Part shown: positions 455 to 22,127 of the stretch, piece after piece
How positions within the stretch are numbered: position 1 is the first letter of the stretch
Layout of the letters: every line of letters starts with the position of its first letter
Assembly (NCBI GenBank): GCA_009602725.1
Contig: WELB01000048.1
Span: forward strand, 12,757-35,055
Direction of reading: 5' to 3'
DNA: 22,299 nt
DNA from: Spirogloea muscicola
Lineage: Eukaryota; Streptophyta; Zygnematophyceae; Spirogloeales; Spirogloeaceae
Notes under the pieces: model-generated
The model's database searches: none
Told to the model about the DNA's origin: nothing
What the model saw: only the letters and a program-made list of their open reading frames with translations
Position numbers and translations under genes: made by a program

Positions 455-1343
455 CTGACACTCCCAGATGAGGTGTTCCGCAATGCCGTCCACCGGCTCC
501 TGGGGCTGCCGCCTCCATGCCTCCAGGGCGTGCGTCAATGCCAGTGTGGCGAGCGAGGGGCCGAGCCTGGTGAGCTGCCTGCTCGCGTCCTGCGCTGTTC
601 CCACGGCGGCGAGCGGACGGCGGCCCACGACCGCCTCCGGGACGCGATGCATGGCATCCTGGTGGAGGCTGGCTTCGCGGTGGCAGCGGAGCACTCCGGC
701 GTCATGCCGCTCCAGGAACTGGCCGACGGTCTCCACGCTCGTCGCGTCGACCTGGTGGCCACCCCACAGGCCGGCGGTCCACGTCTGCTTCTGGACGTGG
801 TGACTACCGACGCATTCGACCGCTCCCACCCAGCCCAGTCTGCCACCAAGGCTGGGTACGCGGTCGCCTGCGCCGCTCGGGCAGAAGAGATCAAGTACGC
901 AGACCATCCGCCGGAAGACGAGTTCTTCCCGTTGGCAATTGACATCCATGGGGCACTGGGCGCTCGGTGGCTTGAGCTACTTAACCAGCTCGCCCGCCAC
1001 GCAATCGCCCATCGCTTCCATGGTGAGCCGGTAGACTTTCCTGCAGCCGGGTCGCTGGCGCAAGTGTATCGCATGCGCCTGGCCGTCTCGCTGCAGAGGT
1101 CCATGGCCCGTGCGCTGCACCTTCGTGCCGGAAGAGCCCTAGCTGCTGCCTCTGGCGGGGACCCACTTCCAGGACCCTAGCATCTCTGATCTGCGGCTGC
1201 TCAGCAGGGGTTACTGAGTCATTCGTAATTGCTTTGTTTCTTCTTGTGCTTGTTTTTCTTAGCGCTTCCCCTGGCTCCCTTCTCGTACTTTGTCCATTCT
1301 TTTTTGGGCTGGCTGTTCCAGCCCCTATCCTCCATGGGCGAGC
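452..1343 (+). pseudogene. 5'-truncated LINE copy: CCHC-like motif, endonuclease domain and 3' tail
   Basis: The copy begins abruptly at LTLPDEVFRNAVHRLLGL, equivalent to about residue 1087 of the intact element, and includes the endonuclease block (RRVDLVATPQAGGP, then LLLDVVTTDAFDRSH and KYADHPPEDEFFPL). Two defects mark it as dead. The histidine of the CCHC-like motif is lost (PARVLRC against AAHMLRC). Compared with the copy at 20371, about 8 nt are missing after AAASG near 1155, shifting the frame so the ORF ends at 1180. The original end, ISDLRLLSRGY-stop, is still readable at 1185-1217 in another frame. The 3' UTR follows, with the family hairpin at 1306-1324 and ATGGGCGAGC ending at 1343. 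Confidence 0.85.
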
Positions 1344-1403
1344 TCTTTCTTCTAATCGAGCGAGGGCTGTGAGAATCACGAAAGTGGCTCTTTCCTCTAT
1401 AAA

Positions 1404-1450
1404 TTGTCCACTCTATTCTGGGCTGGCTTTGCTAGCCCCTCTTCTTCTAT
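1404..1450 (+). repeat. LINE 3' tail with hairpin, interrupted by the next copy
   Basis: TTGTCCA is followed by GGGCTGGC (1420-1427), TTT and GCTAGCCC (1431-1438). One C of the 3' arm has become T, which still allows G-U pairing in RNA. The tail reads on to TTCTTCTATGGG and then joins directly to the coding tail of another copy at about 1451. Confidence 0.7.
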
Positions 1451-1680
1451 GGGGATAGTTTTCCGGCAGCTAGTCTGTCGGATCTGAGGCTCGTCACTCG
1501 TAAGTACTCAGTGATCCATCCTCCCCCTGATCTGACATAGCATCTTCCGACCCCATTGTAGCTGCTACACGCTTGTAGGCCCCTCCGAACCTTTGTCAAA
1601 TCTTTTTGTGGGCTGGCTTTTCGCAGCCCTTGCCCCCATTGGGAGTGCCACTTCTATCTCTTTTTCTTCCATGGGCGAGC
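1451..1680 (+). pseudogene. Strongly 5'-truncated LINE copy (C-terminal codons and 3' tail)
   Basis: GATAGTTTTCCGGCAGC and then GGATCTGAGGCTCGTCACTC correspond to the last codons (SFPAASLSDLRL.TR.Y) of the copy ending at 19119. The stop codon has decayed to TCA. The 3' UTR is nearly the same as 19120-19265, so both belong to one subfamily. The hairpin is at 1610-1629 (GGGCTG/CAGCCC), and ATGGGCGAGC ends at 1680. Confidence 0.75.
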
Positions 1681-1866
1681 AATTTCTTCTTTCAAAGGCG
1701 GAGAGGGCTGTAAAAGCTGACACACGACGTTGTCAAAAAAGCGAGACCCCAGCCAAGTGTTGCCCGCCCCCCGACATAGAGCTGGCTAGCCTTCACAACC
1801 CGCTTTCCACACTTGCAGGAGGCGTCACTCGTCAGCCGCGCGCACCTGCTGCGCAGGCGCCATGCG
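1681..1866. promoter_or_regulatory. Likely promoter/5' UTR of the PET117 gene
   Basis: This is the only sequence between the last LINE tail and the PET117 start codon. It becomes GC-rich toward the gene. I see no recognisable TATA box. Its role is inferred from position only. Confidence 0.3.
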
Positions 1867-2189
1867 ATGTCCCGCCGCGCCCTCGCCGTCGCGCTCGGCG
1901 TCAGCACGCTGACAGCGGCCGGGATCCTCCATATCCACCGGGCTCAGGTCGAGGAGCGCAAGGTGGCTCGCTTGCCTACGCTCGAATGTCGTGCCTCCAT
2001 CATGACCTCGAGCCGCCTGGCATGCCGGCGGTCTCACCGCTCAGTGGCCGATCTGGCGGCTCGCAGAACCTGCACAAGGGCGTCCTCCGTGACAAGGAGC
2101 TGTGGAAGAGGAAGCAGCGCGAGCGAGCTGAGAGTCTCCTGGCCAAGGCTGGGGGCGGTCCGGCTGGAGGGAGCACTTCGTCTGCCTAG
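1867..2189 (+). CDS. PET117: PET117-like cytochrome c oxidase assembly factor, 2 exons, 72 aa
   Basis: PET117 is a small mitochondrial inner-membrane protein needed for cytochrome c oxidase (complex IV) assembly; in yeast it partners the heme A synthase Cox15. Exon 1 (1867-1962) encodes MSRRALAVALGVSTLTAAGI followed by LHIHRAQVEERK: the MS(R) start, a single hydrophobic helix (about residues 5-21) and the charged 'H..Q..ER' stretch seen in the family. The intron is 1963-2066 (AAG|GTGGCT ... CTCGCAG|AAC, phase 0). Exon 2 (2067-2189) gives NLHKGVLRDKELWKRKQRER and a short tail ending TSSA-stop; 'LHKGVLRD' fits the family's 'L..GV.RD' signature. The 72-aa length is normal (about 70-80 aa elsewhere). 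I chose ATG 1867 over the out-of-frame ATG at 1862 because it gives the family N-terminus. The RCC1 gene starts 119 nt downstream. Reading the unspliced frame hides this gene. Confidence 0.8.
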
Positions 2190-2308
2190 TGCAAGCACCA
2201 GAAAGGCCGGAGCGAGCGTCATCTTTTCCTTTCCAACGGAGCACCTGAGTGCTCGGCGACTGATACAGCAGAGGTCTCTTCAACGGGTGAAACCAGGAAA
2301 TAGCTGTC

Positions 2309-4394
2309 ATGGTGGCCATGAGACATCTCCTTTCTCACAGGCGTATGAGCCAACTGGCTGTTAGATGCATGGACAGTCATGCAAACTGGCGAGGTCTGAC
2401 CTCATCTGCCACTGGACCTGCAGGTAAGCGTGAGCCCTGTGGTTGCTTCCATTTTACTTGTGGTTAAGCTGCTCAGCCTTGAAGCAGTCCCTTGCTCTTA
2501 AGTACTGTATGTGATAGCCCTCCTCGTCTGTCAAAGTACAGCCAAAAAGTATGCCCCCTTCAGGATGCTGGTGCTTCTACTTCCATCCTGCTTAAGTTGG
2601 AGCTCGCACTCAATATCCTTGACCTGCTGTACACAGCAGCAGCTGGTCGTAGGACGACGGTTTGGAGTTTTGGAGACAACAGCCAAGGTGCGCTAGGCCA
2701 CCCAAGTGGACTACAAGACTTTCAGTATGAACCTGAGACCGTGAGTGGCTTGCCTACAGATATTGTTTCAATTGCTGCTGGGCATTACCACTCATTGGCA
2801 GTCACATCATCCGGCCAGCTCTGGTCATGGGGCAGAAACCAGGAGGGCCAACTAGGGCCGACTAGGGAAGGCCTTGCCGAGCCACACCCTGTGCAAGGAT
2901 TGGAAGGAGTGCATATAGTAGCAGCAGCTGCATCAGCAGTTGTGAGCATGGCTATCAGCAAGGATGGAGATCTGTGGTCTTGGGGAACGTCTGAGAGGGG
3001 TCAGCTTGGACTTGGAGAGCATGTCACAAAAACTTCTGTACCCCAGCGAATTGAGCCATTGAGAGGAGTTGCGCAGGTGCACTCTCTAAGTACGTACATC
3101 TCCACCTCGAATTAGCTTCTCTGTGGCCTTCTGCTAACGCTTGCACACATTGCAAGTGTAAGCTGCCTCATGGTTGTGATCGTTCCCTGTGAGCGTGTAC
3201 TTTGCTGTGATCAAGCATGCATTCTCAGTTGTTGCACAAGATGGGAAGCTTCTTTCAACATACTTCCTGACTCAGCTGCCTTCCTCCCAGGTTGCCCTCG
3301 GCTGGGGCCACGCGCTGGCTTGCACAGTTGATGGTCAGCTTTATGGCTGGGGTTACGCTGACCAGGGGAGGCTTCCCCTATACTCTGACACGTTCAGAGC
3401 AGCTGCAAGAAACTGCCGTGACAATGCTGACTCTGGCAATGGTATCACATCCTTGAGTAAGGAAGAAGCTGATGCAGCATCTCAGCATCTGGCTGCGGAA
3501 GTGGGCATGGAGAAGCTGTACTGGACCCCTCAGCGCTCTGAGTTCTTCCTTTGTGTAGATGTGGCAACTGTTGCCTGTGGCATGGACCACTCCTTGATTC
3601 TGAGCGGTAAATACATCTGGTGGACATTTAGTTCCTAGTTTTCCCCCTCTGATCTTGATCCTGGTCCGTATTTGCTGTGCATGGCACAGCCTCTTCCTGT
3701 GTTGCATGCTTCATACATCATGTATGCCAGACCTATCTACCATCACTATAATTGCTGGTGTCCAGAAGAGACTAGGTTACAGTGTTGTATATAGTTGACT
3801 TGTCTCTCATGTGTCACTCTTTCTTTTTGACAATCGTGGATATTGACTTCCCGTCTTTATGCAGAGGCTGGGCATCTGTACACCCTTGGCGATAACAGTC
3901 TTGGACAGCTTGGGAAGGGCAGACAAGTGCCAGCTTCGGGTATGGTCTGTCCAGTTCCAGGTCTGCAGGTACTTCATGCAGCTGCAGGGCTTGGTCATTC
4001 TTTGGTCATAGCAAGGCAGGCTCCAACAGGCGGAGCTGTTGGAGCATTCACAGGTCTTGCTTCCACGGAGTCAGGCCAAAGGCTTTTCTCCTGGGGTTGG
4101 AACCAGGCCTTGCAGTTAGGCAGAAGTAGTGAACAGGCGGAGGACACCCCTGGCGAGATCGAGGGGTTGGAAGGTGTCATGGTGAAAAGCCTGAGTGGGG
4201 GTCGAGTGCATAGCTTGGCGGTGACTAAGAGCAAAGAACTGTGGACCTGGGGCACTGGTCATGGAGGTCGCTTAGGTCATGGGAGCTCCAGAGACGAGCC
4301 TGCACCACTTCCAGTGGAAGCCTTGATGGATCATCAAGTCCTAGGTGGTGCCTGCGGTCTTGACCACACTCTTGTACTGACTCAGCCCAAGTGA
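2309..4394 (+). CDS. RCC1-repeat (seven-bladed propeller) protein, probably mitochondrial, 4 exons, 466 aa
   Basis: Exons are 2309-2423, 2637-3076, 3291-3606 and 3865-4394. Introns are GT-AG with phases 1, 0 and 1. The product has RCC1 repeats throughout: VWSFGDNSQGALG (about residue 47), LWSWGRNQEGQLG (100), LWSWGTSERGQLG (151), LYGWGYADQGRL (202), LYTLGDNSLGQLG (295), LFSWGWNQALQLG and LWTWGTGHGGRLG, and it closes with GGACGLDHTLVLTQPK. Exon 1 encodes MVAMRHLLSHRRMSQLAVRC and more, rich in R/S/H with no acidic residue in the first 20, as in mitochondrial presequences. Length and targeting resemble plant RUG3 and animal RCC1L, mitochondrial RCC1 proteins involved in intron splicing/complex I (RUG3) or ribosome biogenesis (RCC1L); orthology is inference. 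ATG 2309 is the first ATG after an in-frame TGA at 2288. The second exon could start at 2637, 2640 or 2643 (tandem AG acceptors), all in frame. Confidence 0.85.
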
Positions 4395-4960
4395 ACAGTT
4401 GTTACATGCCTCTGAGGACATGTCTCATGCAGCATGCTTTCCAGCTACGTAATTCACCTAAAACTGTTGGCAACGAGCCTGTCTCAAAGCAGGAAGCGAA
4501 CTGCAGAAGGAAAAGACCTAAAGGCATTGGTTCAAGTGCGAGTAGCAGTTGGTGATCTGGCCTCCACCTGCTGCGGGATTGGCCAGCAGGCTTGGCCACC
4601 TGCTCATCATAGCGCTTGTTTAGGCCAGAGCGCCTTCTCAGCCAGCCTAGTGGGGGCGATGATGGTGGCCAAGCTGGGGCCATGTCACTTGCGAGACCTG
4701 CAGTTGCTTGGGTGCCCTTGTGCGTGTGCCAATCGGACTTTGCATCAGCTTCAATCATACTTTCGGATATGGTCTGTTCCATCTAGCTACTTAAACCGTG
4801 GGCTTCTGTGTCAGAAGGCAATGATGTGGATAAGCCAAGCCCATAGAGGATGCCCAAAAGTCCCAGAAATTGGTGTTCAACCTGCTTGTGAAAAGGGGTC
4901 AGCCAGGACGAGGCGGCCTGCAGAGCGACGCGAGCAGCTTCCACGCTCTTGTGCTCGGGG
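4395..4960. other. Intergenic stretch after the RCC1 gene, no gene recognised
   Basis: It should hold the 3' UTR of the RCC1 gene. ORFs of 126-188 codons cross it on both strands, but they lack recognisable motifs and splice context. Nothing here is supported as coding. Confidence 0.4.
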
Positions 4961-4964
4961 CCTT

Positions 4965-5232
4965 TTGGACTGGCCTTGCCCAGTCAACACCTTCTCCTGA
5001 AAGGGCCTCGTGCAGGCAGGCTACTTATCATCTTCTTTCTGCCGGTGGTATTGCTTTCCTGGTACTTCACTTGTTTATGAGACTACTTATCCATTCTATT
5101 TGGGCTGGCCATTCACAGCCATTGCCCCATCTTTACTAGCTTTTCATTCCCGGCAGGGTTTTTCAAATGGACCTTGCACAGTCTCTTCAGGCTGCCCTTT
5201 CATCCTATCCTCAATGAGCGAGCACTTTCTCT
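4965..5232 (+). repeat. LINE 3' tail remnants
   Basis: Two pieces are visible. At 4967-4984, GACTGG-loop-CCAGTC is a hairpin of the family shape with changed base pairs, preceded by GGGGCCTTTT. At 5089-5120, CCATTCTATTTGGGCTGGCC leads into a GGCTG/CAGCC stem (5103-5120) followed by ATTGCCCC. CAATGAGCGAGCACTTTCT at 5211-5229 matches the ATGGGCGAGCACTTTCT motif that ends other copies. There is no LINE coding sequence between them. Confidence 0.55.
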
Positions 5233-5900
5233 CACAGCTGCCGCCTCCCCTTAGAAGTGCGTCTCTCGTCTCCGGCTACTTAATTGTCCTGTTCCGACTT
5301 GCGGCTAATTATCAAGGGTTTCTAGTGGGCATCTGTTGTAGGCAACTGCTATGCTGAGTGGTTATGTTGCGGGTGTTGCCATGCTAGCGACAGGCAACAG
5401 CGGCCCAAGCGGGCTGCCCCGATGCGCAACAGCCAGCTGGGGCCTGGCCGGTTCGGCGCAACCGTCGGGCAGGGGAGCGCCAACTGCTGGCCTCGTCGGC
5501 GGGCGGCTCCACCAATAGCCAAGTGGTAGCAATAGCCAGGTGTAGAGAAGGCGAGGGCGGGTGCGCATGAATTGAGAGGGATGCCAAATCAAGCCACTGC
5601 GCTGCTCAAGCCAAAGCTACTGCAGAGAATGAGAGAAGGCGCGCGGTGCGCTTGAAATGAATGAGAACGGCAGTGCTACACTAGGCGGAGCCCTATGCCT
5701 ATCCTATGCTAGTGGAGGCAGAGGGAATATTGCGAGAGCCAGCTGGAAAAATTCATCACCCTGAAACTGAAGGGGCTTCAGGAACACGACTTTCTAACGA
5801 CACCACTGAGCACATGCAGATCCGACAGGCTAAGCTGAAAATTTTCGTGTATTTGAGACGTGTGTAATCTGGGGAGCCGGAGCACGAAGCCAGCGGCCTG
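5233..5900. other. Non-coding stretch with two copies of the short dispersed repeat
   Basis: On the minus strand, GGCATCCCTCTCAATTCATG (about 5569-5588) and a weaker copy at 5632-5662 (GCGCACCGCGCGCCTTCTCT) match the dispersed repeat at 415-454. The remainder contains short unsupported ORFs and no motif that I recognise. Confidence 0.4.
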
Positions 5901-6177
5901 GCTCAGTGCGCGCCCAGCGAGAGAGCACGCGCTGCTGGGAAAGCTTGGGAGCGCTCTTGAGTAAGCCGCATCCAGTTATATGCAACGAACGCCTGCAGAA
6001 TGCTAGTATGCTCCAAGCTGCCCCCCCGACTATGACGGTGCGCGTCAACAAGCTGGTCCGGATACGGGAGAGAGGGAGGAACAGTTATCGGGGCGTGGGA
6101 AGGGGGGGCAGTCCGCCCACGCTTGCATGCCCGACCACTGGATCAGAGCCAGCCCGGCCCCGCCCATCCCGCTCTCT

Positions 6178-6216
<39 letters not shown>

Positions 6217-7317
6217 ACGCCGCCGCCACCGCCCGGTCGCTGGCCCGCCGCAACATCTTCGTTGAGCCCCGCGGTGAAGCTTGTGCGCTAACATTGCGCC
6301 TGGGCGTCGCTCGGCCCGCGAGCGGGTCCAGGAGGCTGCGAGCACGTTGGATTGCACCGCAGCAAGGCAGCCCACAGCTCTATCCGGCATTCGTCGCGGA
6401 CGTATACGAGAGGTGTTGATGCTGCAGCACTGTCAGAAGAGTGATAAAGGCTTTCTAGACTGGTGAGACATCTCTGACTTCTGGAAACACGGGCCTTGAC
6501 AGCTGGCAGTTGCGAAGAGCCCACTGAATATTGTTACTACAAAGCACTGTGTGAGTGCGTCTTGAGACCTGAGCATCATGCTCTTCATCTTGGTGGTGTA
6601 GACGCAATTGGCATTATTCTAGATGAAGTTCTCGGATGTTGCTCGCTGCACAACGTCCTTACTGAGCAGATTTTGAATTGGATGCGTGCTGCTTGCTGCT
6701 GAACAACTCCAGCAATGCAAGACTCGTGACCCCTTGACTCGCTTGAGCTACCCTCAACTCTTGCATGAGAAGGGGGCATACACACCAACGCTGCCACACA
6801 TAGCTGTCAAGCAGTCAGTGATCAAAACGGACGTTTACAGGAGTCTACCAAGGCAAGCCCAGATTTTAGTGATGACTGATCATGCAGATTAGACTACTGA
6901 CTATTCTCTTTCGTTAGAAGAGGGCGAGGTTCCTGCTTTGCCAGTTGAGTGCAGCACGGGTGTGCTATGCCGCTCTAGAGTGCTCTCATGTTGCTGGTGC
7001 TATGACTCTAAGGCCTCAGATACAGCCAGGGTGAAAAGTATGCAGCTTCGTGCTCAGCGGCCTACACGGCTACATTGTATCTGTTTCAGTGCCCCTGCAG
7101 ATCCCTTTCTCGCGAAAGGAGCGGCTGCCAAGGCCTTTGAAGACATTCATTTTTCATGAAGACTTGCTCCAAACCAAGTCAGCTAGAGGGCTGGATTTCA
7201 CTTGCCAGCTGTGTTTGAAGCTCGAACCAGCTGTGCTCCACCTCATGTGCTGGCCGCCTCCTGCAAGCATGTCAAAGAGCGGCCTCGAGTTTACTTAGGA
7301 TTGCGTCAACTGCTTAG
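5901..7317. other. GC-rich upstream region and unresolved 5' part of the membrane-protein gene
   Basis: The region is GC-rich around 5900-6400 and then normal. A good donor-like site (CTG|GTGAGA) lies at about 6463 and a likely acceptor (TGCTTAG|GTT) at 7317. The promoter, 5' UTR and any signal-peptide exon of the downstream gene should be here, but no ORF gave a convincing hydrophobic leader, so no exon is called. Confidence 0.35.
6181..6216 (+). repeat. (CCG)12 trinucleotide tract
   Basis: Twelve uninterrupted CCG units are followed by imperfect units (ACG CCG CCG CCA CCG) to about 6232. The tract lies in the GC-rich region upstream of the membrane-protein gene. The long Ala- and Arg-rich ORFs that cross it are products of the repeat. 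Confidence 0.95.
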
Positions 7318-10300: not shown

Positions 10301-10576
10301 TTCAACTCACAAGTACGGTGGATTGGCACAAAGACATGCGTGCTTAAGTCACAGACATGTATCTGACTTCTGTATCTGAGGTTGACTCCGCTGCTGAGGT
10401 GGTTGCTTTTCGTGTGGATGCCTTAAACAGGTCTCTTGCGTGTGATGGGAGTCTTGCTGCTCATCACAGCCACAGCAACTACTTTTACGTTTTGTCACCT
10501 ATTGCTGCTGCTGATTTGGAGCAGGCTTCCTAAGCAGCAAGCTTGCCATAACCAAGTGGCCCCACCACGACCATGA
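7318..10576 (+). CDS. Five-TM membrane protein of the plant At2g12400/At2g25270 family, 8 exons seen, N-terminus incomplete
   Basis: Exons are 7318-7567, 7808-7978, 8243-8379, 8769-8979 (or from 8787), 9294-9438, 9664-9886, 10090-10273 and 10431-10576; phases agree throughout, giving about 488 codons. TM helices are LTGMVGLLLAVGLAILGLLV, ATLYFCGAVCAVVGSFLVVM, YLAVTVVALAVVTLLTLIG, ILSAVIVLGLLLASIWFSLY and VMGVLLLITATATTFTFC. A long loop lies between TM4 and TM5, with conserved-looking cysteines (NDTC, MPC, RPLCDPF, NC, EC) and four N-glycosylation sequons (NRT, NIT, NCS, NIT), so it is probably lumenal or extracellular. The order SKYW-TM, TM, coiled loop, TM-TM-NDTC, LCNPF-like motif, last TM matches the plant family, whose topology resembles tweety/prominin; function is not established. 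Plant relatives have a leader before the first TM, so an upstream exon is likely; otherwise ATG 7366 would give 472 aa. The second intron can also be read as GC-AG (7990-8220). Confidence 0.75.
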
Positions 10577-13500: not shown

Positions 13501-13524
13501 GGTTGCGGCAGAGCAGCGCCGCCA

Positions 13525-13548
13525 CCGCCGCCGCCGCCGCCGCCGCCG
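13525..13548 (-). repeat. (CGG)8 tract upstream of the TRM7 start codon
   Basis: On the plus strand (CCG)8 is perfect, inside a longer imperfect GCC-rich run (about 13516-13570). It starts 25 nt upstream of the TRM7 ATG, so it is probably transcribed as a CGG tract in the 5' UTR, much as in other CGG-bearing 5' UTRs. Confidence 0.9.
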
Positions 13549-13570
13549 TCGCCGGCGGAGGCGTCGGCGG

Positions 13571-13942
13571 CGCGGGGCTGTGAGGCAAGCGGCAGGTCGT
13601 GGCTCCACAGTAGAAACACAGTGGGCTACGGCGACTTGGCTTGCTCTGTTCCCCTCAGCTCAACTTATGTCTGAATAAGTGCTGACCCGGGGTTTACTGA
13701 GGGCCCCTGTTTGCCCATCCTGCAGCGCGTTGCGCATGAAATGGAAGGGAGGCAAGACGCCCAATATTTTCTTTTCCAGCCCAGAAAAGAAAGAACAAAG
13801 TATGAGAAGAGAGAAGGCGCGCGGGGCGCAGGGATTGAAAGGGAGGCCATTTCAATGAGAAGGGGCTAGGTCGAGGGCGCCGCCGCCGCCGCCCCTCCTA
13901 AACCCCGGGCCGTCGCCGGCGTCGCTGCCGGCGGCGCCCGCC
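13571..13942. other. Region between TRM7 and the LINE ORF
   Basis: It contains the TRM7 promoter, one copy of the short dispersed repeat on the minus strand (about 13812-13857) and a very GC-rich stretch (13870-13942) that probably includes the LINE 5' UTR. The 5' end of the LINE cannot be placed. No other gene is seen. Confidence 0.5.
13812..13857 (-). repeat. Short dispersed repeat, copy near the LINE 5' side
   Basis: On the minus strand, GGCCTCCCTTTCAAT..CTGCGCCCCGCGCGCCTTCTCTC matches the copies at 415-454 and 21290-21330. It is oriented opposite to the LINE and lies about 90-130 nt before its start codon. Confidence 0.6.
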
Positions 13943-16900
13943 ATGGGGTCCGCGGCGCGCCGGTCTCTCGCACCCGCCGCCCTCGCCTCCGCCGCCCCGC
14001 TCCCCGTCGCCTCAACCGCGCGCCCCCGGCGCCGTCGACGGAGCCCGAGTCCGGAGTGGCTTCAGGAGTCGCTCCAGGCCAAGCATTGGTGTGAGGCGGT
14101 CCGGGCGCCTCGCCCCCGACTCAGGCAGGAGCGAGGCGCTGCGCCTCCGCCGCCAGCGCCGCCCGACCTTCATGTCCCCGCGTTGCTCCCCGCCGTGGTA
14201 GCCGCCGCCTGCCTCCGCTTCATCTGCAGGCCCGCTCCGCCGCCGCCGCCGCCGCCATTCCCCCTCCACGCGACACCGCCATCCACCGCAACGCCGCCAC
14301 CGCTCCCCCCCTCACCACCGCCGCCGCCACAACCGCCTGCGGCGTCAGAGGGCGTGCAGTGCCCTCGCTGTCCAAAATTGTGCAAAAATGCACATGGTCT
14401 TGCGATCCATGCGCACTCCTGCTTGAAGCGCGCCGGCATCGCCGCCGCGGCGGCTGCTGCGGCAGTCGCGGCAAGCGGCCCCCCCGTCCTTGCTCAGGCC
14501 GTCCCCGCTCCGGAGCAGGAGCATCACTCGGAGGAGCATATATCGCCTCCAGCCCCAGAGATGTGTGGGGCACCCGCTTTATTGACTCCGCCCTCGAGAC
14601 ATGATGGGCCCCCTGAGGTGAACCCAATCCCTCCGCAGGGTGCACCGTCGTATGAGCACGAAGCCGCCCCTCATCTTCCCGCGGGTGTTGTGCCTCTCGT
14701 GGAAACAGGGCTGCCGTCCCCACCGCCATCGCCGCCGTCACCTCCTCCGCCGCCGCCGTCGCCTCCGCTACCCCAGCACCCACCACCGTTGAGCCAGTCA
14801 TCGGCGCCGCCCCCGTCGCCGCCGCCTCCACCCTCGCCGAGCGAGCCAGCGCCACCGCCGCCGCCTTCACCGGCCTCGCCCGACCCCCCGCGGTGCCAAT
14901 ACTGCACGAAGCCCTACACCACGCGGTCAGGCCGGACCCTCCATGAACGGGCCTGCGTGTGCAACAACAACCGTGCGGAGCAGGCGCGGGGCGCAGCTGC
15001 TGCAGGTGGCCGCCGGGGCCGGCCAGGCCGGCCAGTCCCACCCGCGCCGTCCCCACCCACGCCTCAGCACTGGCAGTGGCTGGCCGGCCTCGACCTGGCA
15101 GCCGTCCACCGCCAGGCGGCCCTCCCGCTCGTCCGCCACGTTCCCCGCTGGGTGCGTCCACACATTCGCCGCGCGCTTCGCCCGGCGATGCAGCGGATTG
15201 TCCGAGACCATCGGGACGAGGCGGCCTGGAAGCAGTTCCTCCTCTTCCCCCGGCTACTGCTCGGGCGCGTCCCCAACGACGGCCGCCGGCAGGGCCAGCA
15301 GCCCCTCCTGGAGCGCGTCCAGATGTTCGAGGGCGGCCAGTGGGAGGAGCTTCTGGCACGCCACGATGCAGCGGTGGCCGCCTCGGCGGCAGACCATGGG
15401 GCCACGCGGGCCGCGCCAGCCGGGGCCGCCAATGTCCGCCGGGCGCTACGCTTCGGCCATGCGGGCGAGTTGTCCAGGGCGGTCCAGGCCCTGGACGACT
15501 CGGTGCTGGCGCCCACCAACGCCGCAACGCGGGCGGCCCTGGACTCCCTGCACCCTCCGGCGCGCAACCCCCTGCCCCCGTGGCTGGACATCTTCACCCC
15601 GCTGGAGGAGGTGGTCCTCGACGCCGACGCCCTGCGGCAGGCCCTGCAGAGCAGCCGCCGCGCAGCCGCTGGAGGTCCTTCCCACATGCTCACCGAGCAC
15701 CTCCGGGAAATCTTCTTGGAGGGGGACGCTGCCGACTTCGCGGCGCTCCACCAGGTGTGCCAGCTCCTAGCTCGCGACCAGGTCCCAGCCAGCGTTCGGG
15801 ACGTCCTGTGCGCCAGTACACTGCTGGCGCTCAGCAAGGCCGGCGGAGGGGTCCGGCCCATCGCCATCGGGGAGGTACTCTACCGTCTGGTGGGGCGCGC
15901 ACTCTGGCAACAGCACGCGGGGCAGGCCCAAGCACACCTGGCGCCCCAGCAGTTTGGCGCGGGGCTACGGAGCGGCGGCGAGACGGTCGTGCACGGCGTA
16001 CGGGCCACCCTGGACCTGCACCCGGAGTGGGTGGCTATGGCAGTCGATGTCCGCAATGCCTTCAATAGCGTTGATCGGGACGTCATTGCGGAGGAGCTGA
16101 GAGAGGCCTTCCCCAGCCTTCTACCCTTCTTCAGGCTGGGGTACGGTCGGCCAAGTGACCTGCTGTGGCGGACGGAGGGGGGAGCGGTGGAGACCCTCCA
16201 CTCCACCAGGGGTGCACGTCAAGGGGATCCACTCGCTGGATTCTACTACGCGCTGGCACACCATCGCGCGCTCCAGGCAACGGTCGCGGCTCACCCTGGC
16301 GTGCTGGTGCCGACGTACGCAGATGATACCACTCTGGTGGGACCGCCTGCAGACGTCGTGGCAGCCTTTGCTACCCTCCAGGTGCAGCTGGGCGCGATCG
16401 GCCTGGACATCAGGGCGGACAAGTGCTGTGCCTGGTCCCCGGCAGGTCCCCTGCCAGCCCACCTGGGCCTGCCCGTGGGCTGCCAGACACCGGCCGAGGG
16501 CCTCACTCTCCTCGGCGTCCCCCTGGGCGCACCTGCCTTCGTGGCGGAGCAGCTGCAGGGGCGGCTGCAGGACCACCTCCGGCCGGCGGCCCGCCTGCAC
16601 ACGCTGAACGACATGCAGCTGGCAACCGCCATGCTGACCCGGTGCATCGCGCAGCGGCCCCACTACCTGGCCCGCACCGTCCTTCCCTCACCGGCGGTGA
16701 CGGCAGCGTATGAGGCCTTCGACACCGGCATCATGGCGGCCGCAGCCTCCCTCGTGCAGCACCCGGCGTTCCTCACCACCCAAGCTGCGCAGCTGCAGGC
16801 CAGCCTGCCGATCAGTCGTGGCGGCTTGGGATGCCGCTCAGTTGCCCGCGTCTGTGAGGCGGCCTTCCTGGGAAGCTGGGCGCAGGTGGCCGCCCCCATG

Positions 16901-18019
16901 TGTCAGCGGTTCCTCGTGCACGGACAACGCGCCCTGGAGCGGGCGGCAGCCGATGTGGAGACAGGCCAACTCCCCTTCCAAGTCGCCCTCCGCACTGCCC
17001 GCGACAGGCTCCTGCAGGTCCACCCCAACATGTCCGAGCAGACTGTTCCTTTCCGGCACCTCGCCCACACTCCAGACCTGCGGGCTCAGGCACGCTTCAC
17101 GGCGTTGGTCGAGAAGGCGGCCTCCGACCAGGCGGTGGAGCTTCTCCCTCCGTCTGACGTTCGCGGGCGTGCTCGGCTTCTCTCCGCCTCTTCCCCTGGG
17201 GCGGCGGCGTGGCTCCAAGCGCTCCCACTCTATGCCGCACTTACCATGCCCGACGAGGTCTACCGGACGGCGGTGCATCGGCTCTTGGGGCTCCTCCCTC
17301 CCTGCCTTACAGGTGTCACACAGTGCGAGTGCGGCGCCCGGCACGCCGACCCTGCGGAGCTGGCCGCGCACATGCTCCGTTGCGCCCACGGAGGCGAGAG
17401 GACCGCTTCCCATGATCTTTTGCGCGATGGTATGCAGGGGGTGTTCATAGAGGCGGGCTTCAAGGTGGCGGTGGAGTGCTCCTCAGTCATGCCCATCCTG
17501 CGGGGCGAGGACGGCCGGTCGCACACCCGGCGCGCCGACCTGGTCGCTATCCTGCCCAGCGGCGGTCCCCGCATCATCACTGATGTGGTGACAACGGACA
17601 GCTACGACTCCGGCAACCCCACCAGGTCGGCGTCGTTTGCAGGGCATGCGGTCGGCCTGGCAGCCCGGGCAAAAGAGAAAAAATATGCCGATCACCCGGT
17701 CGGTGATGAGTTCGCGGCCCTGGCGATAGATGTTCACGGGGCCTTCGGCAGCCGCTGGCTGGATCTCCTCCAGCGGCTTGCTCGTCAGGCTATTGATCGG
17801 CGGTCGGGTCCGCCCGGGGCGCTGCTCGGCTTCAACGCCGCCGGGTCGCTCGCCCAGGTCTTTCGCATGCGCTTGGCGGTATCGTTCCAGCGATCCCTTG
17901 CCCACGCTGTCCACACGCGCGCAGGACGCGCTCTGGCCGCGGCCTCTGGGTCTCGGCGGAGTGCCTCCTTCCCTGCCTCGAGCTACTCGGACCTGATGTT
18001 GCTCACTCGCGGGTACTGA
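13943..18019 (+). CDS. LINE polyprotein: C2HC fingers, reverse transcriptase, restriction-like endonuclease, 1358 aa
   Basis: The single ORF starts at ATG 13943 in good context (CCGCCATGG) and ends LLTRGY-stop. Domains in order: a basic, proline-rich N-terminus; C2HC finger 1 with C140, C143, H156, C160; an Ala/Pro-rich linker with SPPPPP runs (about 220-315); C2HC finger 2 with C318, C321, H334, C338; and reverse transcriptase from about 555, with GGVRPIAIGEVLYRLVG, motif A AVDVRNAFNSVDR (D702), motif B ARQGDPLAGFYYAL and motif C YADDTTLVG (D794, D795). A thumb region follows, then the CCHC-like motif C1128, C1130, H1143, C1147. The restriction-like endonuclease has RRADLVAILPSGGPRIITDV (D1199, D1214), TTD and KYADHP. 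No AP-endonuclease domain is seen. No stop or frameshift interrupts it and all catalytic aspartates are present, so it may be active. Two fingers with a long proline-rich spacer would bind target DNA by analogy with R2. Confidence 0.9.
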   Translation: MGSAARRSLAPAALASAAPLPVASTARPRRRRRSPSPEWLQESLQAKHWCEAVRAPRPRLRQERGAAPPPPAPPDLHVPALLPAVVAAACLRFICRPAPPPPPPPFPLHATPPSTATPPPLPPSPPPPPQPPAASEGVQCPRCPKLCKNAHGLAIHAHSCLKRAGIAAAAAAAAVAASGPPVLAQAVPAPEQEHHSEEHISPPAPEMCGAPALLTPPSRHDGPPEVNPIPPQGAPSYEHEAAPHLPAGVVPLVETGLPSPPPSPPSPPPPPPSPPLPQHPPPLSQSSAPPPSPPPPPSPSEPAPPPPPSPASPDPPRCQYCTKPYTTRSGRTLHERACVCNNNRAEQARGAAAAGGRRGRPGRPVPPAPSPPTPQHWQWLAGLDLAAVHRQAALPLVRHVPRWVRPHIRRALRPAMQRIVRDHRDEAAWKQFLLFPRLLLGRVPNDGRRQGQQPLLERVQMFEGGQWEELLARHDAAVAASAADHGATRAAPAGAANVRRALRFGHAGELSRAVQALDDSVLAPTNAATRAALDSLHPPARNPLPPWLDIFTPLEEVVLDADALRQALQSSRRAAAGGPSHMLTEHLREIFLEGDAADFAALHQVCQLLARDQVPASVRDVLCASTLLALSKAGGGVRPIAIGEVLYRLVGRALWQQHAGQAQAHLAPQQFGAGLRSGGETVVHGVRATLDLHPEWVAMAVDVRNAFNSVDRDVIAEELREAFPSLLPFFRLGYGRPSDLLWRTEGGAVETLHSTRGARQGDPLAGFYYALAHHRALQATVAAHPGVLVPTYADDTTLVGPPADVVAAFATLQVQLGAIGLDIRADKCCAWSPAGPLPAHLGLPVGCQTPAEGLTLLGVPLGAPAFVAEQLQGRLQDHLRPAARLHTLNDMQLATAMLTRCIAQRPHYLARTVLPSPAVTAAYEAFDTGIMAAAASLVQHPAFLTTQAAQLQASLPISRGGLGCRSVARVCEAAFLGSWAQVAAPMCQRFLVHGQRALERAAADVETGQLPFQVALRTARDRLLQVHPNMSEQTVPFRHLAHTPDLRAQARFTALVEKAASDQAVELLPPSDVRGRARLLSASSPGAAAWLQALPLYAALTMPDEVYRTAVHRLLGLLPPCLTGVTQCECGARHADPAELAAHMLRCAHGGERTASHDLLRDGMQGVFIEAGFKVAVECSSVMPILRGEDGRSHTRRADLVAILPSGGPRIITDVVTTDSYDSGNPTRSASFAGHAVGLAARAKEKKYADHPVGDEFAALAIDVHGAFGSRWLDLLQRLARQAIDRRSGPPGALLGFNAAGSLAQVFRMRLAVSFQRSLAHAVHTRAGRALAAASGSRRSASFPASSYSDLMLLTRGY

Positions 18020-18109
18020 GCTTCCCTAGTATGTTGTCGTGATTGGTAGAGTAGAGGAGTCCTTCCTCGGCTTCTCATTCTTCGGCTTTGGACATTGTCC
18101 ATTCTTTTT

Positions 18110-18128
18110 GGGCTGGCTTTGCCAGCCC
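18110..18128 (+). other. 3' UTR hairpin of the intact LINE
   Basis: GGGCTGGC (18110-18117), loop TTT and GCCAGCCC (18121-18128) form a perfect 8-bp stem 91 nt after the stop codon. It is preceded by TTGTCCATTCTTTTT and followed by CTCTTTCTTTATGGGCGAGC. The same element closes nearly every LINE copy in this window. By analogy with R2 3' UTR recognition, it is the probable RNA signal for target-primed reverse transcription. Confidence 0.75.
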
Positions 18129-18157
18129 CTCTTTCTTTATGGGCGAGCCTTCCCCCC

Positions 18158-18467
18158 CTCGCGCAGGTCTTCCGCACGCGGTTGGCCGTCTCGCTTCAGC
18201 GGTCCCCTGCGTTCGCGGTCCACTTGCGCGCCGGCCGAGCTTTGGCGGCGGCCTCCGGCTTCCGTCAGGGCGACGTCTTTCCCCCGGCTAGCTACTCCGA
18301 CTTGCATCTCCTGACTAGAGGTTACTGAGCGTCCTCTGGCCGATGTCTTCGTCCTAGTCCAAAGGCATGGTCTGTAGTGTAGTTCTTTTTCGGCTCCTCT
18401 TTCTTTGGCTTGAGATCTTGTCCATTCTTTTTGGGCTGGCTCTGCCAGCCACTCCTCTATGGGCGAG
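18158..18467 (+). pseudogene. 5'-truncated LINE copy stacked directly after the intact one
   Basis: The open frame PLAQVFRTRLAVSLQRSPAF and then AVHLRAGRALAAASGFRQGD ends SDLHLLTRGY-stop at 18328, equal to the last ~55 residues of the intact element. The start lies about 11 nt after the upstream tail's GGGCGAGC. Its 3' UTR differs from the intact copy but ends in the same hairpin (18433-18450, GGCTGGC/GCCAGCC) and TATGGGCGAGC. Confidence 0.85.
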
Positions 18468-18473
18468 CACATG

Positions 18474-18628
18474 CCAGGGGGAAGCGCTAATTTAATTAGA
18501 AAAACAAGCACACAAAGAAACAAAGCAGCTACGTATCACTCAGTAACCCCTGCTAAGCAGCCTCAGGTCAGAGACGCTGGGCTCCTGTCCCCTACTGCTA
18601 ACACGGGGGTATTGAGGGCGCCCTGTCT
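18474..18628 (-). pseudogene. Inverted LINE tail (last codons and part of the 3' UTR)
   Basis: On the minus strand, SVSDLRLLSRGY-stop (stop codon at about 18542-18544) is followed by a 3' UTR matching that of the copy at 452-1343 (GCTTTGTTTCTT..TGTGCTTGTTTTTC..AGCGCTTCCCCTGGC). It joins the preceding plus-strand tail in inverted orientation. An extra AATTAAATT lies in the UTR. Confidence 0.75.
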
Positions 18629-18653
18629 GCCTGGCCTGGCCTGGCCTGGCCTG
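18629..18653. repeat. (GCCTG)5 pentanucleotide tract
   Basis: Five perfect GCCTG units stand in a row inside the LINE debris. Confidence 0.9.
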
Positions 18654-18664
18654 TCATCCTCAGG

Positions 18665-18770
18665 CCCCTTTGTAGCTGCTCACCGCTCTTAGGCCCCTCT
18701 GAACCTTTGTGAATTCTTTTTGGGCTGGCTTTTCGCAGCCCTTGCCCCCATTGGGAGTGCCACTTCTTCT
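18665..18770 (+). repeat. LINE 3' tail, no coding part
   Basis: CTTTGTAGCTGCT...TTAGGCCCCTCTGAACCTTT and the hairpin GGGCTG/CAGCCC (18722-18741) followed by TTGCCCCCATTGGGAGTGCC match the 3' ends at 1540-1655 and 19160-19265. This is the same subfamily, with only the tail retained. Confidence 0.75.
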
Positions 18771-18854
18771 GTCTGCCTGGCCTTTGGCTCCGTTATGAAC
18801 ACCTGTATGCATCTGGCTGGCATTTCACAGCCGATTCTTTCATATCAGCAGCCG

Positions 18855-19265
18855 CTTTCTCCCAGTGGCTCGACGTGCTGGCCAGGCTTGCGTGGCGCGC
18901 TGTGTCCCGTAGGCGCGGCGAGCCGGCTGACTTCAACGCAGCTGGTTCGTGGGCTCAGGTATATCGTATGAGGTTGTCAGTATCCCTTCAGCGGTCCATG
19001 GCCCACGCTCTGCATCTGCGCGCTGGCCGTGCTTCGCTGCGGCCTCCGGCTTTCGTCAGGGGGATAGTTTCCCGGCAGCTAGTCTGTCGGATCTGAGGCT
19101 ACTCACTCGTACCTACTGAGTGATCCATCCTACCCCTGTTCTGACATAGCATCTTCCGGCCCCTTTGTAGCTGCTAATCGCTTGTAGGCCCCTCCAAACC
19201 TTTGTCAATTCATTTTGGGCTTGGCTTTTCGCAGCCCTTGCCCCCATTGGGAGTGCCACTTCTTC
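18855..19265 (+). pseudogene. 5'-truncated LINE copy with a 1-nt frameshift
   Basis: WLDVLARLAWRAVSRRRGEP and then ADFNAAGSWAQVYRMRLSVS match the C-terminal part of the intact ORF. The frame is lost after LHLRAGRA near 19030 by a 1-nt deletion; the expected end (GFRQGDSFPAASLSDLRLLT, then RTY-stop at 19117-19119) continues in another frame. The 3' UTR is nearly identical to that at 1500-1655. The hairpin at 19217-19237 carries a 1-nt insertion in its 5' arm. Confidence 0.85.
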
Positions 19266-19267
19266 CT

Positions 19268-20050
19268 GAAAGGGGGTGCTCTGGCCAGAGCCAGAGGCAG
19301 CAGCGAGGGCTCTGCCAGCGCGCAGGTGCAGCGCGCGGGCCATAGACCTCTGCAGCGAAACGGCCAAGCGCATCCGGTACACCTGCGCTAACGACCCGGC
19401 TGCAGGAAAGTCCACCTGCTCCCCATGGAAGCGGCGGGCGATGGCATGGCGGGCGAGTTGGTTGAGCAGCTCGAGCCACCGAGCGCCCAATGCGCCATGC
19501 GTGTCGATCGCCAGCGGGAAGAACTCGTCTTCCCGCGGATGATCAGCATACTTGAGCTCTTTTGCCCGAGCGGCGCAGGCGACCGCATACCCAGCCTTGA
19601 TGGCTGCTGGGTGTGTGCGGTCGTATGCGTCGGTGGTCACCACGTCCAGGAGAAACGTAGCCCGCCGGCCTGTGGGGTGGCCACCAGGTCTACGCGACGT
19701 GCGTGGAGACCGTCGGCCCTTTGCTGGAGGGGCATGACGGCGGAGCTCTCCGCTGCCACCGAGAAGCCAGCCTCCAACAGGTTGCCATGCATCGCATCCC
19801 GGAGGCGGTCGTGGGCCGCTGTCCGCTCGCCGCCGTGGAAACAGCGCAGAACGTGAGCGGCCAGCTCTCCAGGCTCGGCCACTAGCTCGCCACATTCGCA
19901 CTGACGCACGCCCTGGAGACATGGCGGCGGCAGGCCCAGAAGCCGATGGACGGCACTCCGGAATACCTCGTCCGGGAGGGTGAGGGCGTCGTTGAGGGGG
20001 AGTGCCTGGAGCCACGCCGCCGCCCCCGGGGAGCAGCACGACTGGAGGGG
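19268..20050 (-). pseudogene. Inverted LINE fragment: CCHC-like motif and endonuclease, frameshifted
   Basis: On the minus strand it reads SPGAAAWLQALPLNDALTLP, DEVFRSAVHRLLGL, a CCHC-like motif with histidine retained (CECG...AAHVLRC), RRVDLVATPQAGG, then after a 1-nt deletion near 19655 LLDVVTTDAYDRTHP, KYADHPREDEFFPLAID and LAQVYRMRLAVSLQRSMARA, stopping at AAASGSGQ. It ends where the tail of the 18855 copy ends, so the two fragments meet 3' end to 3' end and this one lacks its own 3' UTR. A 9-nt in-frame deletion lies after THPA. It is the same subfamily as 452-1343. Confidence 0.85.
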
Positions 20051-20189
20051 GGCTTCAGCACCTAGGAGTGAGCACGTACATTCCGACAGGCCAAGTTGGG
20101 GGCAAAGCGGCGGCCATAGGTTCAACTGATGACGCCCGGGGTCTTTCTCTGAGATCATAAATCTCTTCAATAGGGGCGAGTGGGCGATG

Positions 20190-20290
20190 GCTATATCACA
20201 AGGAAGCTCATTACAAGGGGGCGAAGTGAGAGGCCAGCCCAGAAAATATTGGACAATCTTGGACAAGGTTTGAAGGGCCAGGAGAGCGAT
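20190..20290 (-). repeat. LINE-family tail, minus strand
   Basis: On the minus strand it reads CCTTGTCCAAGATTGTCCAA..TTTTCTGGGCTGGCCTCTCAC, the conserved tail core with a duplicated TTGTCCAA box. The 3' arm of the hairpin is mostly lost. Confidence 0.6.
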
Positions 20291-20370
20291 GCTCGCTCAA
20301 CGGCGGCGCATGCCTGCGGTGGTGATGGTGTGTGTCGGCTCGACAGGGCTGGTGTCTGTATTGGAGCCCC

Positions 20371-20645
20371 TTTATGGTCCGTGCGCTGCACCTGCGTGCT
20401 GGCCGAGCCCTTGCTGCTGCCTCTGGCTCTGGCCAGGGGACATACTTCCAGGAGCATAGCCTCTCCGACCTGCGCCTGCTTAGCAGGGGTTACTGAGTGG
20501 TTAGTAGCTGCTTTGTTTTTTCTTGTGTGCTTGTCATTTCTGCTGCTTCGCCTTAGGGCTTCGCCTGGCTTCCCCCCCCCTCTTCTTGTACTCTGTTCAT
20601 TCTTTTTTGGGCTGGCTGTTCCAGCCCATATTCTCAATGGGCGAG
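20371..20645 (+). pseudogene. 5'-truncated LINE copy with intact C-terminal codons
   Basis: The frame VRALHLRAGRALAAASGSGQ and then GTYFQEHSLSDLRLLSRGY ends at the stop at 20494-20496, giving the undamaged C-terminus of the subfamily found broken at 452-1343. The 3' UTR has GCTTTGTTTTTTCTTGTGTG and the hairpin GGGCTGG-CTGTT-CCAGCCC at 20609-20627, the same loop as at 1306-1324. AATGGGCGAGC ends at 20645. Confidence 0.85.
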
Positions 20646-20699
20646 CCCTTCTTCTTTCGTCCAACCATCGCTCGCCAAAAGACATCTCTTTCTATGTAA

Positions 20700-21040
20700 C
20701 GCAATGGCTGTGAGAGGCCAGCCCAACGGTACATACCGTTGAGCTGAAAGGGCCGGAAGGTGCAAAAAGAGAGAAGTGCTCGCCCATGGAGAAGCGGGGC
20801 TGGCAAAGCCAGCTCAAAATTAATGGACAATGTCCAAAGCCAAGGAAGTGGTGCCGAAGCAAAAAGCACGAATCCACTTTCATGTTCCTAAAAGACGGGG
20901 GAATGGCAGCTCCAGGTATTGGCCCCGTTGTGGCCGAGTGGCCCCTCAAAGAACAGCGCTTCCCAAGTGACAGCAGAGGCTATGAGAGGCCAGCCCAAAA
21001 GATGGACAAGGTCTGAAGTGGCCGGATGGCGCCAAAGGCA
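20700..21040 (-). repeat. Two or three LINE tails in minus orientation
   Basis: On the minus strand, one tail runs TTGGACATTGTCCATT (about 20840-20819), hairpin GCTGGC-TTT-GCCAGC (20813-20799), CATGGGCGAGCACTTCTCTC (about 20790-20770). Half-tails with only the 5' hairpin arm (TTGGGCTGGCCTCTCA) lie at about 20711-20730 and 20982-21013, the latter with CCTTGTCCATCTTT. No coding sequence is attached. Confidence 0.6.
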
Positions 21041-21133
21041 AGAAACTTAATCTCTAAGACGTTAAGGCGTCACCCTCCCTACCTGCATACACAGAAGTGC
21101 CTTCTTCATGCCACTGGCTTGCATACTGGTGCT

Positions 21134-21184
21134 CCCAGATAGCCCCTGACATACGGGCGGGGCCCCAGATAGTCCATGACATAC
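21134..21184. repeat. Imperfect tandem repeat, 30-bp period
   Basis: CCCAGATAGCCCCTGACATAC (21 nt, counted here only as a unit start at 21134) recurs at 21164 with two substitutions; CCCAGATAG and TGACATAC are the shared parts. Confidence 0.7.
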
Positions 21185-21289
21185 ATGTGCTCACTCGTGG
21201 GTATAAGAGTCCTCCAATCATTGTCTATTCCGCTTTCTTACGTGAGCCCATTTTGAAATTCTCATTGTGCTTCTTGCAAACTGTGTGCT

Positions 21290-21330
21290 GGCCTCCCATT
21301 CAATTCATGCGCACTGCGCGCCTTCCCTCT
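21290..21330 (+). repeat. Short dispersed repeat, rightmost copy
   Basis: GGCCTCCCATTCAATTCATG, then CGCACTGCGCGCCTTCCCTC, matches the copy at 415-454 with about four differences. The following sequence (GCCCTTCGACC) is not shared. Confidence 0.65.
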
Positions 21331-21529
21331 GCCCTTCGACCGTGAGCGGCCGCTAGTGGAGCGGAAGTGCATGGTGCATATCAAATGAGAGGGAGGCTAT
21401 GGTCGAAGCAGTAAACTGTCCAGGCCAGGCGAAATTGAAGTCGAGAGCATAGGGGTACACAAAGCGAAGAACCCTGGCTGGAGGGGCTAAGGGACAGGGA
21501 GAAAGCACAATCGAAGGGGGACTGAAGGA

Positions 21530-21820
21530 AACCTTGTCCAATCTTTCTGGGCTGGCCTTTCACAGCCCCCGGCCCCTTTGGAGAGAAAAGCGCGGCCGAA
21601 TTGACTGGTGGCTGGGAGAAGCCAGCCCAAAAGGAATGGACAAGGTCAAGAGGAGCCGAATGGAGCAGAAAGCAGGGGACTAAGTGCTAAGACTTTGGAA
21701 GAGCTCACTTGTTCTTCTATCAACGAATTCAAATCCAAGAGTGAGCACTTCCACATTCACAAGGTAACGTGGGCTCCTTCAGACCTTGTCCATTCCCTTG
21801 GGCTGGCCTCTCCCAGCCAC
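21530..21820. repeat. Cluster of three LINE tails in alternating orientation
   Basis: Plus: CCTTGTCCAATCTTTCTGGG with hairpin GGGCTG/CAGCCC (21549-21568). Minus: CCTTGTCCATTCCTTTTGGG followed by CTGGCTTCTCCCAGCC (about 21645-21609). Plus: CCTTGTCCATTCCCTTGGGC with hairpin GGCTGG/CCAGCC (21801-21818). The tails carry no coding sequence. Confidence 0.65.
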
Positions 21821-22121: not shown

Positions 22122-22127
22122 GGCGCG

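Follow-up and report, generated by a model that had tools for sequence, protein, structure and literature searches.

The locus and its LINE copies

The analyzed stretch, called the window throughout, comprises 22,299 bases (58% GC) of contig WELB01000048.1 of the alga Spirogloea muscicola (assembly GCA_009602725.1, positions 12,757 to 35,055 of the forward strand) and holds densely clustered copies of a long interspersed nuclear element (LINE). A short tail recurs in it, both behind the open reading frames (ORFs) of LINE copies and at places without an attached ORF. It consists of a TTGTCC-like 5' box, a hairpin with a GGGCTGG-like 5' arm and, in part of the copies, a 3' box which can pair with the 5' box. 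We regard it as probable that an R2-like LINE uses this tail as its stringent-type 3'-terminal recognition tag in target-primed reverse transcription. The tail was kept between copies whose 3' untranslated regions (UTRs) have lost all likeness.

The single long LINE ORF of the window belongs to copy B1. Pfam identified its reverse transcriptase (RT) (RVT_1, E 2.3e-13), which was the only match at E up to 0.1; the match as such indicates just an RT, and the non-long-terminal-repeat type is suggested by the architecture and the truncated copies. Two N-terminal zf-C2H2 stretches (E 0.0051) stayed under the Pfam cut-off. In the C-terminal region KEKKY fits the KX2KY motif, which the excerpt of PMC5678591 assigns to the restriction-like endonuclease of R2-type LINEs. 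Four copies span this motif; it is complete in two (KEKKY, KELKY), while A1 lost the first K and the copy at 22119 the Y. The CCHC preceding the nuclease region of B1 is spaced CX1CX12HX3C instead of the published R2-group form CX2-3CX7-8HX4C (same excerpt), so that "R2-like" denotes a likeness and not a classification. A structure model of the C-terminal region showed the order alpha-beta3-alpha-beta with a predicted local distance difference test (pLDDT) value of 39, and the fold matches obtained with it by Foldseek are therefore weak: R2Tg ranked first (E 6.2e-3) and two other R2 proteins sixth and seventh, mixed with unrelated TDP2 matches, none at 0.001 or better. PDB sequence searches found no match, and NCBIfam returned just a sub-threshold group II intron RT match. 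Overall, the family appears to be a single-ORF, R2-like LINE carrying a restriction-like endonuclease.

A recurrent tail in the window

Fifteen tails were assigned by hand on the basis of a TTGTCC-like box and a GGGCTGG-like arm and were grouped into types A to G (Table 1). Allowing up to 2 mismatches, the box TTGTCCAWTCTTTT occurred 15 times in the window compared to 0.23 times expected in shuffles. One of these matches (13785-13798, minus strand) is followed by GGGCTGGAAAAG without a 3' arm and was excluded from the tail count, and D1 (21009, minus strand) was reached only with 3 mismatches to the box. The pattern GGGCTGGC-N2-8-CAGCC gave 12 matches versus 0.03 expected, one of them being the palindrome at 18110 read in reverse. 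The 3' arm is present in 14 of the 15 tails (lost in D4 at 20256, minus strand); variants of the 5' arm are GAGCTGG in B3 and GGGCTTGG in C1. An earlier note on this DNA had reported at least 15 tails in both orientations with a box followed by an arm, which agrees with our count, as do the stems described at 18110, 1420, 1306 and 20609. The GACTGG/CCAGTC stem named there does exist, one base off the position given (4968-4985), and lacks both boxes. The 3' box ATGGGCGAGC directly follows the stem in five of the 15 tails (A1, A2, B1, B2, B3) and in a sixth, G1, only after an interrupting insertion; that it "usually" follows was hence too strong a statement. The excluded box match forms part of a segment at 13766-13798 (minus strand; covariance model E 7.1) with box and GGGCTGG, which lies some 150 nt before the long ORF, on the strand opposite to it.

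Table 1. Coordinates of LINE reading frames and of tails in the window (aa, amino acids; CM, covariance model; MFE, minimum free energy structure; z, z score of the fold unless stated otherwise).
Feature	Position	Strand	Remarks
LINE ORF, copy B1	13943..18019	+	1358 aa; RT preceded by two weak C2H2-like fingers (N-terminal) and followed by CCHC-like finger and restriction-like endonuclease motif (C-terminal)
LINE ORF piece	6-245	-	tblastn
LINE ORF piece	455-1120		tblastn
LINE ORF piece	18158-18325		tblastn
LINE ORF piece	18797-19116		tblastn
LINE ORF piece	19326-20188	-	tblastn
LINE ORF piece	22119-22298		tblastn
Tail A1	1290..1347	+	behind LINE ORF fragment (tblastn match 455-1120; alignment places ORF end at 1215-1217 in a different frame); model member with CM 78 bits; z -2.75, two helices
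Tail A2	20593..20650	+	behind ORF remnant from 20374, stop 20494-20496; blastn match to A1 (77%), none with tblastn; coding end 85% to A1; z -3.32, two helices
Tail B1	18095..18152	+	5' box, inner hairpin 18110-18128, 3' box 18139-18148; CM 71.2 bits (model member); MFE -24.0, z -3.96, two helices
Tail B2	18418..18472	+	behind 5'-truncated ORF fragment 18158-18325 (tblastn), stop 18326-18328; z -3.20, two helices
Tail B3	20774..20830	-	no attached ORF; model member with CM 70.6 bits; MFE contains both helices, with one broken inner pair; z -1.44
Tail C1	19202..19263	+	behind ORF fragment 18797-19116 with stop 19117-19119; TTGTCAAT/ATTGGGAG could form outer helix (7/8 pairs), absent from MFE
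Tail C2	1593..1655	+	element inserted in tail G1; ORF remnant by DNA similarity (blastn 91% to C1); stop codon mutated to TCA
Tail C3	18707..18767	+	few codons resembling ORF end, stop 18613-18615, judged by eye; weak coding-end z 0.8-4.4
Tail D1	20952..21009	-	no ORF; inner stem absent from MFE; CM 21.6 bits; z 0.01
Tail D2	21586..21643	-	no ORF; shifted stem in MFE; CM 35.1 bits; z -0.14
Tail D3	21786..21842	+	no ORF; inner stem in MFE; CM 17.1 bits, E 0.059; z -1.11
Tail D4	20229..20256	-	3' arm lost, perhaps cut by LINE insertion; CM 13.7 bits, E 0.33
Tail E1	5087..5144	+	no ORF near, no outer helix; CM 27.7 bits; z -1.93 with other 3' partner
Tail F1	21534..21591	+	no ORF; outer helix possible (7/8 pairs), absent from MFE; CM 56.1 bits (model member); box pairing p 0.113; z -0.86
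Tail G1	1404..1451	+	3' box interrupted by C2; ATGGGCGAGC resumes at 1671; z -4.11 for part preceding interruption
Degenerate tail with ATGAGCGAGC	5174..5227	+	outside the 15, unnamed in the earlier note; CM 25.1 bits, E 0.0011
Half tail	20702..20724	-	hairpin kept, AACGGTATGTACCGTT in place of box; CM E 0.62
Candidate GACTGG/CCAGTC hairpin	4963..4995	+	membership doubtful; 17.2 bits, E 0.056, without boxes

The tail is conserved while the UTR diverges

Seven of the 15 tails (A1, A2, B1, B2, C1, C2, C3) are preceded by an ORF end with a UTR of 72-96 nt between both. These ORF ends were supported by tblastn pieces for A1 (with a match that does not reach the end), B1, B2 and C1, by DNA similarity for A2 and C2, and by few codons for C3. 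Four segments of these seven copies (coding end, UTR, 38-nt tail and the 22 nt behind it) were compared in pairs, with 200 shuffles each. UTRs of different types (A, B, C) aligned no better than shuffles, with z between -1.5 and 1.8 and an absolute value below 2 in all 16 cross-type pairs. The 38-nt tail was 72-87% identical in the same pairs (z 5.7-8.6), and none of the 200 shuffles was as good in any of the 16. Cross-type identity of the coding ends amounted to 50-67%, below that of the tail. The 22 nt holding the 3' box were kept between A and B (z 2.5-5.7) and less so between A and C (z 1.7-3.4).

As the block is better kept than the adjoining coding sequence and the likeness of the UTRs is gone, the comparison points to selection on the tail block, mostly on its 5' half and the hairpin. 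Every cross-type pair thus combines diverged UTRs with a conserved 3' end, as expected for a stringent-type LINE. The earlier note had spoken of at least four unalike UTR types; types A, B and C are indeed mutually unalike, and a fourth was not borne out because the other tails have no attached ORF.

Predicted fold of the tail RNA

When 17 stretches were folded singly, the two flanking boxes paired in an outer helix (8 bp each) around the inner hairpin in A1, A2, B1, B2 and B3. All five tails of types A and B are therefore predicted to have two nested helices, and the picture of a single hairpin given in the earlier note had overlooked the outer one. A z of -2 or lower was reached by A1, A2, B1, B2 and G1. 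The complementarity of the boxes was compared with shuffled downstream sequence for 14 tails (G1, with its interrupted 3' box, was omitted) and exceeded the shuffles in A1, B1, B2 and B3 (p 0.005 or less).

For types A and B we propose that the last 50-60 nt of the RNA would fold into a rod. Its outer helix would be made of the two conserved boxes, TTGTCCAT with ATGGGCGA, and a pyrimidine-rich internal loop would separate it from the inner hairpin (GGGCTGGC/GCCAGCCC); in the other types chiefly the inner stem would persist. The protein of the element itself would bind this tag, and target-primed reverse transcription would begin just past the tag, at the 3' end or close to it. Recognition of the RNA by the RT is deduced from other LINEs, and the fold in vivo, the protein binding and the need for transposition are likewise putative.

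An alternative is a role of the hairpin in 3'-end formation or RNA stability, in the manner of a histone-type stem or a terminator, instead of RT recognition. The position near the 3' end and the stability in types A and B would suit such a role. It is difficult to reconcile with the T-rich stretch, which precedes the hairpin rather than trailing it, and with the Rfam scan, which found no family at gathering score in the window; we hold this explanation to be distinctly improbable. ARAGORN detected no tRNA in the window, and with both negative results a known RNA family or a tRNA-headed short interspersed nuclear element (SINE) was discarded as an identity of the tail. A SINE-like nature is nonetheless possible for the lone tails of types D, E and F.

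Covariation and evidence weighing against a structured tag

Two alignments served for the covariation analyses, one of both helices in nine tails (A1, A2, B1-B3, C1-C3, F1) and one of the inner helix without the 3' box in 14 tails (D4, which lost the arm, was left out). In the nine-tail alignment 84.7% of the cells pair in register versus 33-50% when slid by 1-3 columns, a difference favored by the fact that the structure was drawn from the same sequences. Across the 14 tails the inner 5' arm hardly varies; of the eight inner pairs, four are constant, two change on one side only (G-U) and two only break. This contradicts the earlier statement that the stem sequences vary but stay paired. A covariance model and a test of covariation, which the earlier note had proposed for genome-wide copies, were applied here to the tails of the window, and no significant covariation was obtained. 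Its idea of an RT recognition element under selection beside a drifting UTR survives as far as the kept 3' element is concerned; the covariation of the inner stem, on which it had been founded, did not appear.

Several observations weigh against a structured tag common to all types. With both helices in nine tails, a single pair changed on both sides (outer helix, U-A to A-U), and the covariation score was matched by 96 of 500 shuffles. In the inner helix none of the pairs changed on both sides among the 14 sequences, and inner-stem covariation was accordingly rejected. The double change at 4968-4985 was rejected as proof as well, since this example has neither box, aligns to model positions 12-43 only and scores weakly (17.2 bits, E 0.056 over the window). 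RNAalifold, run on 13 tails with the 3' box included, retained five inner pairs and no outer helix. Only five of the 17 folded stretches reach a z of -2 or lower. In C1, C2, C3 and E1 the 5' arm is paired with a different segment, in D2 the stem is shifted, and in D1, D4 and F1 it is absent from the MFE. Box pairing was borderline in A2 (0.065), C1 (0.066) and F1 (0.113) and at shuffle level in C2, C3, D1-D4 and E1 (p 0.32-0.78). Furthermore, in all 14 tails the 5' box pairs with the A/B 3' box at least as well as with its own, and compensation is thus not demonstrated. In the comparison of B with C, the 22 nt with the 3' box show no conservation (z -0.3 to 1.8). Finally, a single 22-kb window supplied all the copies, several of which show obvious damage. 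Compensatory stem changes, which are the usual support for a stringent-type tail and not its definition, gave no significant signal in these few sequences of low power. The small number of copies is the main limit of the analysis of the structure.

These results also bear on the possibility that the block is kept as a linear sequence, TTGTCC, a T-rich stretch and GGGCTGGC being read by protein or RNA, with a palindrome that is incidental or relevant only in types A and B. The part from TTGTCC to GGGCTGGC is indeed the best conserved one, and the 3' arm and 3' box vary, with pairs lost in types C, D and E. Nevertheless, AGCC of the 3' arm was kept in all 14 rows of the inner-helix alignment, and the nested helices coexist in five tails of types A and B. 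We consider a purely linear signal unlikely.

Distribution of the tail and search for further copies

A covariance model built from the nine tails of the two-helix alignment was run on the window with a cutoff of E<0.1. It yielded 16 hits, nine of which are the members of the model. The hits lie at 1.29-1.65, 4.96-5.23, 18.1-19.3 and 20.6-21.8 kb, and the span from 5.23 to 18.09 kb is free of them. Seven are preceded by an ORF end, and six are unattached and located within about 0.6 kb of LINE ORF sequence. That the hairpin is tied to LINE 3' ends, as had been claimed, thus applies to seven of the 16 hits. The remaining nine lack an attached ORF, three of them (4963, 5087, 5174) even a nearby LINE ORF match, and these hits, too, count against the proposed tag. 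The nine may represent very short truncated copies or SINE-like derivatives. A mechanical scan of the window for the two-helix shape found 11 sites, five in LINE tails and six elsewhere (mostly GC-rich), compared to 1-4 sites in each of 10 shuffles; as such sites also occur outside tails and in shuffles, the shape alone is not diagnostic.

Beyond the window, the pattern search gave no match in the viral contig collection, and a protein search there gave one pattern-matching stretch, which was not confirmed. In the genome contig collection the pattern search was likewise without a match, and none of the 27 matching stretches from the protein search was confirmed. No relative of the LINE protein was found in the plasmid collection. 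Among the matches listed in a search of open PMC papers, none describes this tail.

Nested insertions and choice of target

Element C2 starts within the 3' box of G1 (CTTCTATGGG|GATAG) and retains a C-type tail of its own, behind which TTTTTCTTCCATGGGCGAGC stands. Its flanks seem to share a duplication of about 15 nt with three differences; the stretch is rich in pyrimidines, so that similarity may easily arise there by chance. Nine places were inspected for nesting, and in five the 5' end of a LINE lies in a tail or at its end. Besides C2 in G1 (1404-1684), these are B2, which starts directly behind the 3' box of B1 (18139-18160), the LINE at about 22116 (22100-22120), which starts inside an inverted tail, the element at 20724 (minus strand) after B3, and the minus-strand LINE near 20240 (20181-20256), which may start within the hairpin of D4, its boundary being known to about 50 nt. 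The 5' end of C1 lies about 30 nt past a tail, and those of A1 and A2 are not in a tail. The places in this tally were chosen post hoc; the ninth, the full-length copy, yielded no identifiable 5' end, and the ends near 245 and 18590 and those of most lone tails are outside of the tally. The zones around the 16 covariance model hits make up 4.9% of the window; three of the five tail junctions fall inside them and two in tails off that list.

An alternative is that the block represents target DNA, a repeated motif upstream of which the LINEs insert and which is consequently found behind each copy. LINEs with a restriction-like endonuclease are mostly target-specific according to the excerpt of PMC4640811, and some insertions in the window do sit at tails. 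This is opposed by the similarity within type B: an 81-nt repeat (83%; 18051 and 18374) continuously spans UTR and block. Moreover, C2 keeps its C-type block within G1, whose ATGGGCGAGC box resumes afterwards, and the element at 20724 (minus strand), directly after B3, has a D-type hairpin; both nests disfavor the target-DNA reading, to which we give only a very slim chance. Compatible with the proposed recognition tag would be a double role, in which the tail acts as RNA tag and, as DNA, as preferred target. The R2-like LINE would home into the tails of its relatives and create nested clusters of 3' ends, a Zepp-like habit combined with a restriction-like endonuclease. We put this forward as a speculation that is rather unlikely to hold. 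If confirmed, such self-nesting would join target choice and template choice in one element.

Comparison with known LINE tails

Tags at the 3' end are already known in other LINEs, and the statements on them below follow the excerpts of the cited papers. In R2Bm a small 3' core of two stems and a junction suffices for target-primed reverse transcription (PMC10499050). This "R2 tag" (P1-J1/2-P2) resembles our case as a small two-stem 3' element of a single-ORF LINE with restriction-like endonuclease (PMC10499050). In contrast, one helix described here encloses the other across a pyrimidine-rich internal loop, both lie at the very 3' end, no rDNA (ribosomal DNA) target was seen in the window, and the tag is predicted from sequence. 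Zebrafish L2 proteins bind and require their own 3' stem-loop (PMC4176376). UnaL2, ZfL2-1 and ZfL2-2 share with the tails a 3' stem-loop common to related elements, for which binding and the need for retrotransposition are established (PMC4176376); they differ as L2-type elements with the tail-binding region between endonuclease and RT and with short repeats at the end of the tail, while no clear 3' repeat is present here. The plant L1 element ME1 and ZmSINE have a putative 3' hairpin with a conserved CGAG 3' of the stem (PMC3747384), and CGAG is also contained in ATGGGCGAGC, perhaps by chance. They belong to the L1 clade, and compensatory mutations were reported for them (PMC3747384), in contrast to the tails of the window with none that is significant.

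Nested insertion into existing copies and arrays of 3' ends are known for Zepp and ZeppL of green algae (PMC8226300); Zepp, however, is an L1-clade LINE, whereas an R2-like C-terminal nuclease motif is found here. Chlamydomonas RandI/Dualen and SINEX provide LINEs with restriction-like endonuclease and tails shared with SINEs (PMC3747384, PMC4640811). Dualen has an additional apurinic/apyrimidinic endonuclease (APE), whereas Pfam detected only the RT (E up to 0.1) in B1. The own traits of the present case are the R2-like element, the second helix in two types and the possible self-nesting. If confirmed, it would provide a compact 3' tag for an R2-like LINE beyond the rDNA-specific R2s of animals, and the natural variants (types A to G) would allow a dissection of tag recognition. 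R2 proteins are under development for RNA-templated gene insertion (excerpt of PMC12222951), for which a second, shorter tag design could be useful.

Further observations in the window

An inverted piece of LINE ORF at 1-245 is 98% identical to 881-1125 at a distance of 635 nt, and the copy at 19321 is less close (87%); the pair may reflect a recent inversion or a twin-priming-like event. At 20702-20740 (minus strand) a perfect palindrome, AACGGTA-TG-TACCGTT, occupies the position of the TTGTCC box just before GGGCTGG. The D tails at 21588-21657 and 21772-21840 form an inverted repeat (87%) about 115 nt apart. Neighboring tails are sometimes arranged 3' end to 3' end, as at 20593 (plus)/20724 (minus) and 21534 (plus)/21643 (minus). 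An RCC1-like gene is also located in the window (first ORF E 1.2e-32) and appears to be split by introns. A second short repeat, GGCCTCCCTTTCAATTCATGCGC..GCGCGCCTTCTCTC, was found at 408-454 (plus), 5544-5596 (minus), 5631-5661 (minus), 13809-13855 (minus) and 21289-21329 (plus), its copies being 87-94% alike; some of them adjoin LINE pieces, and the repeat perhaps represents the end of another element.

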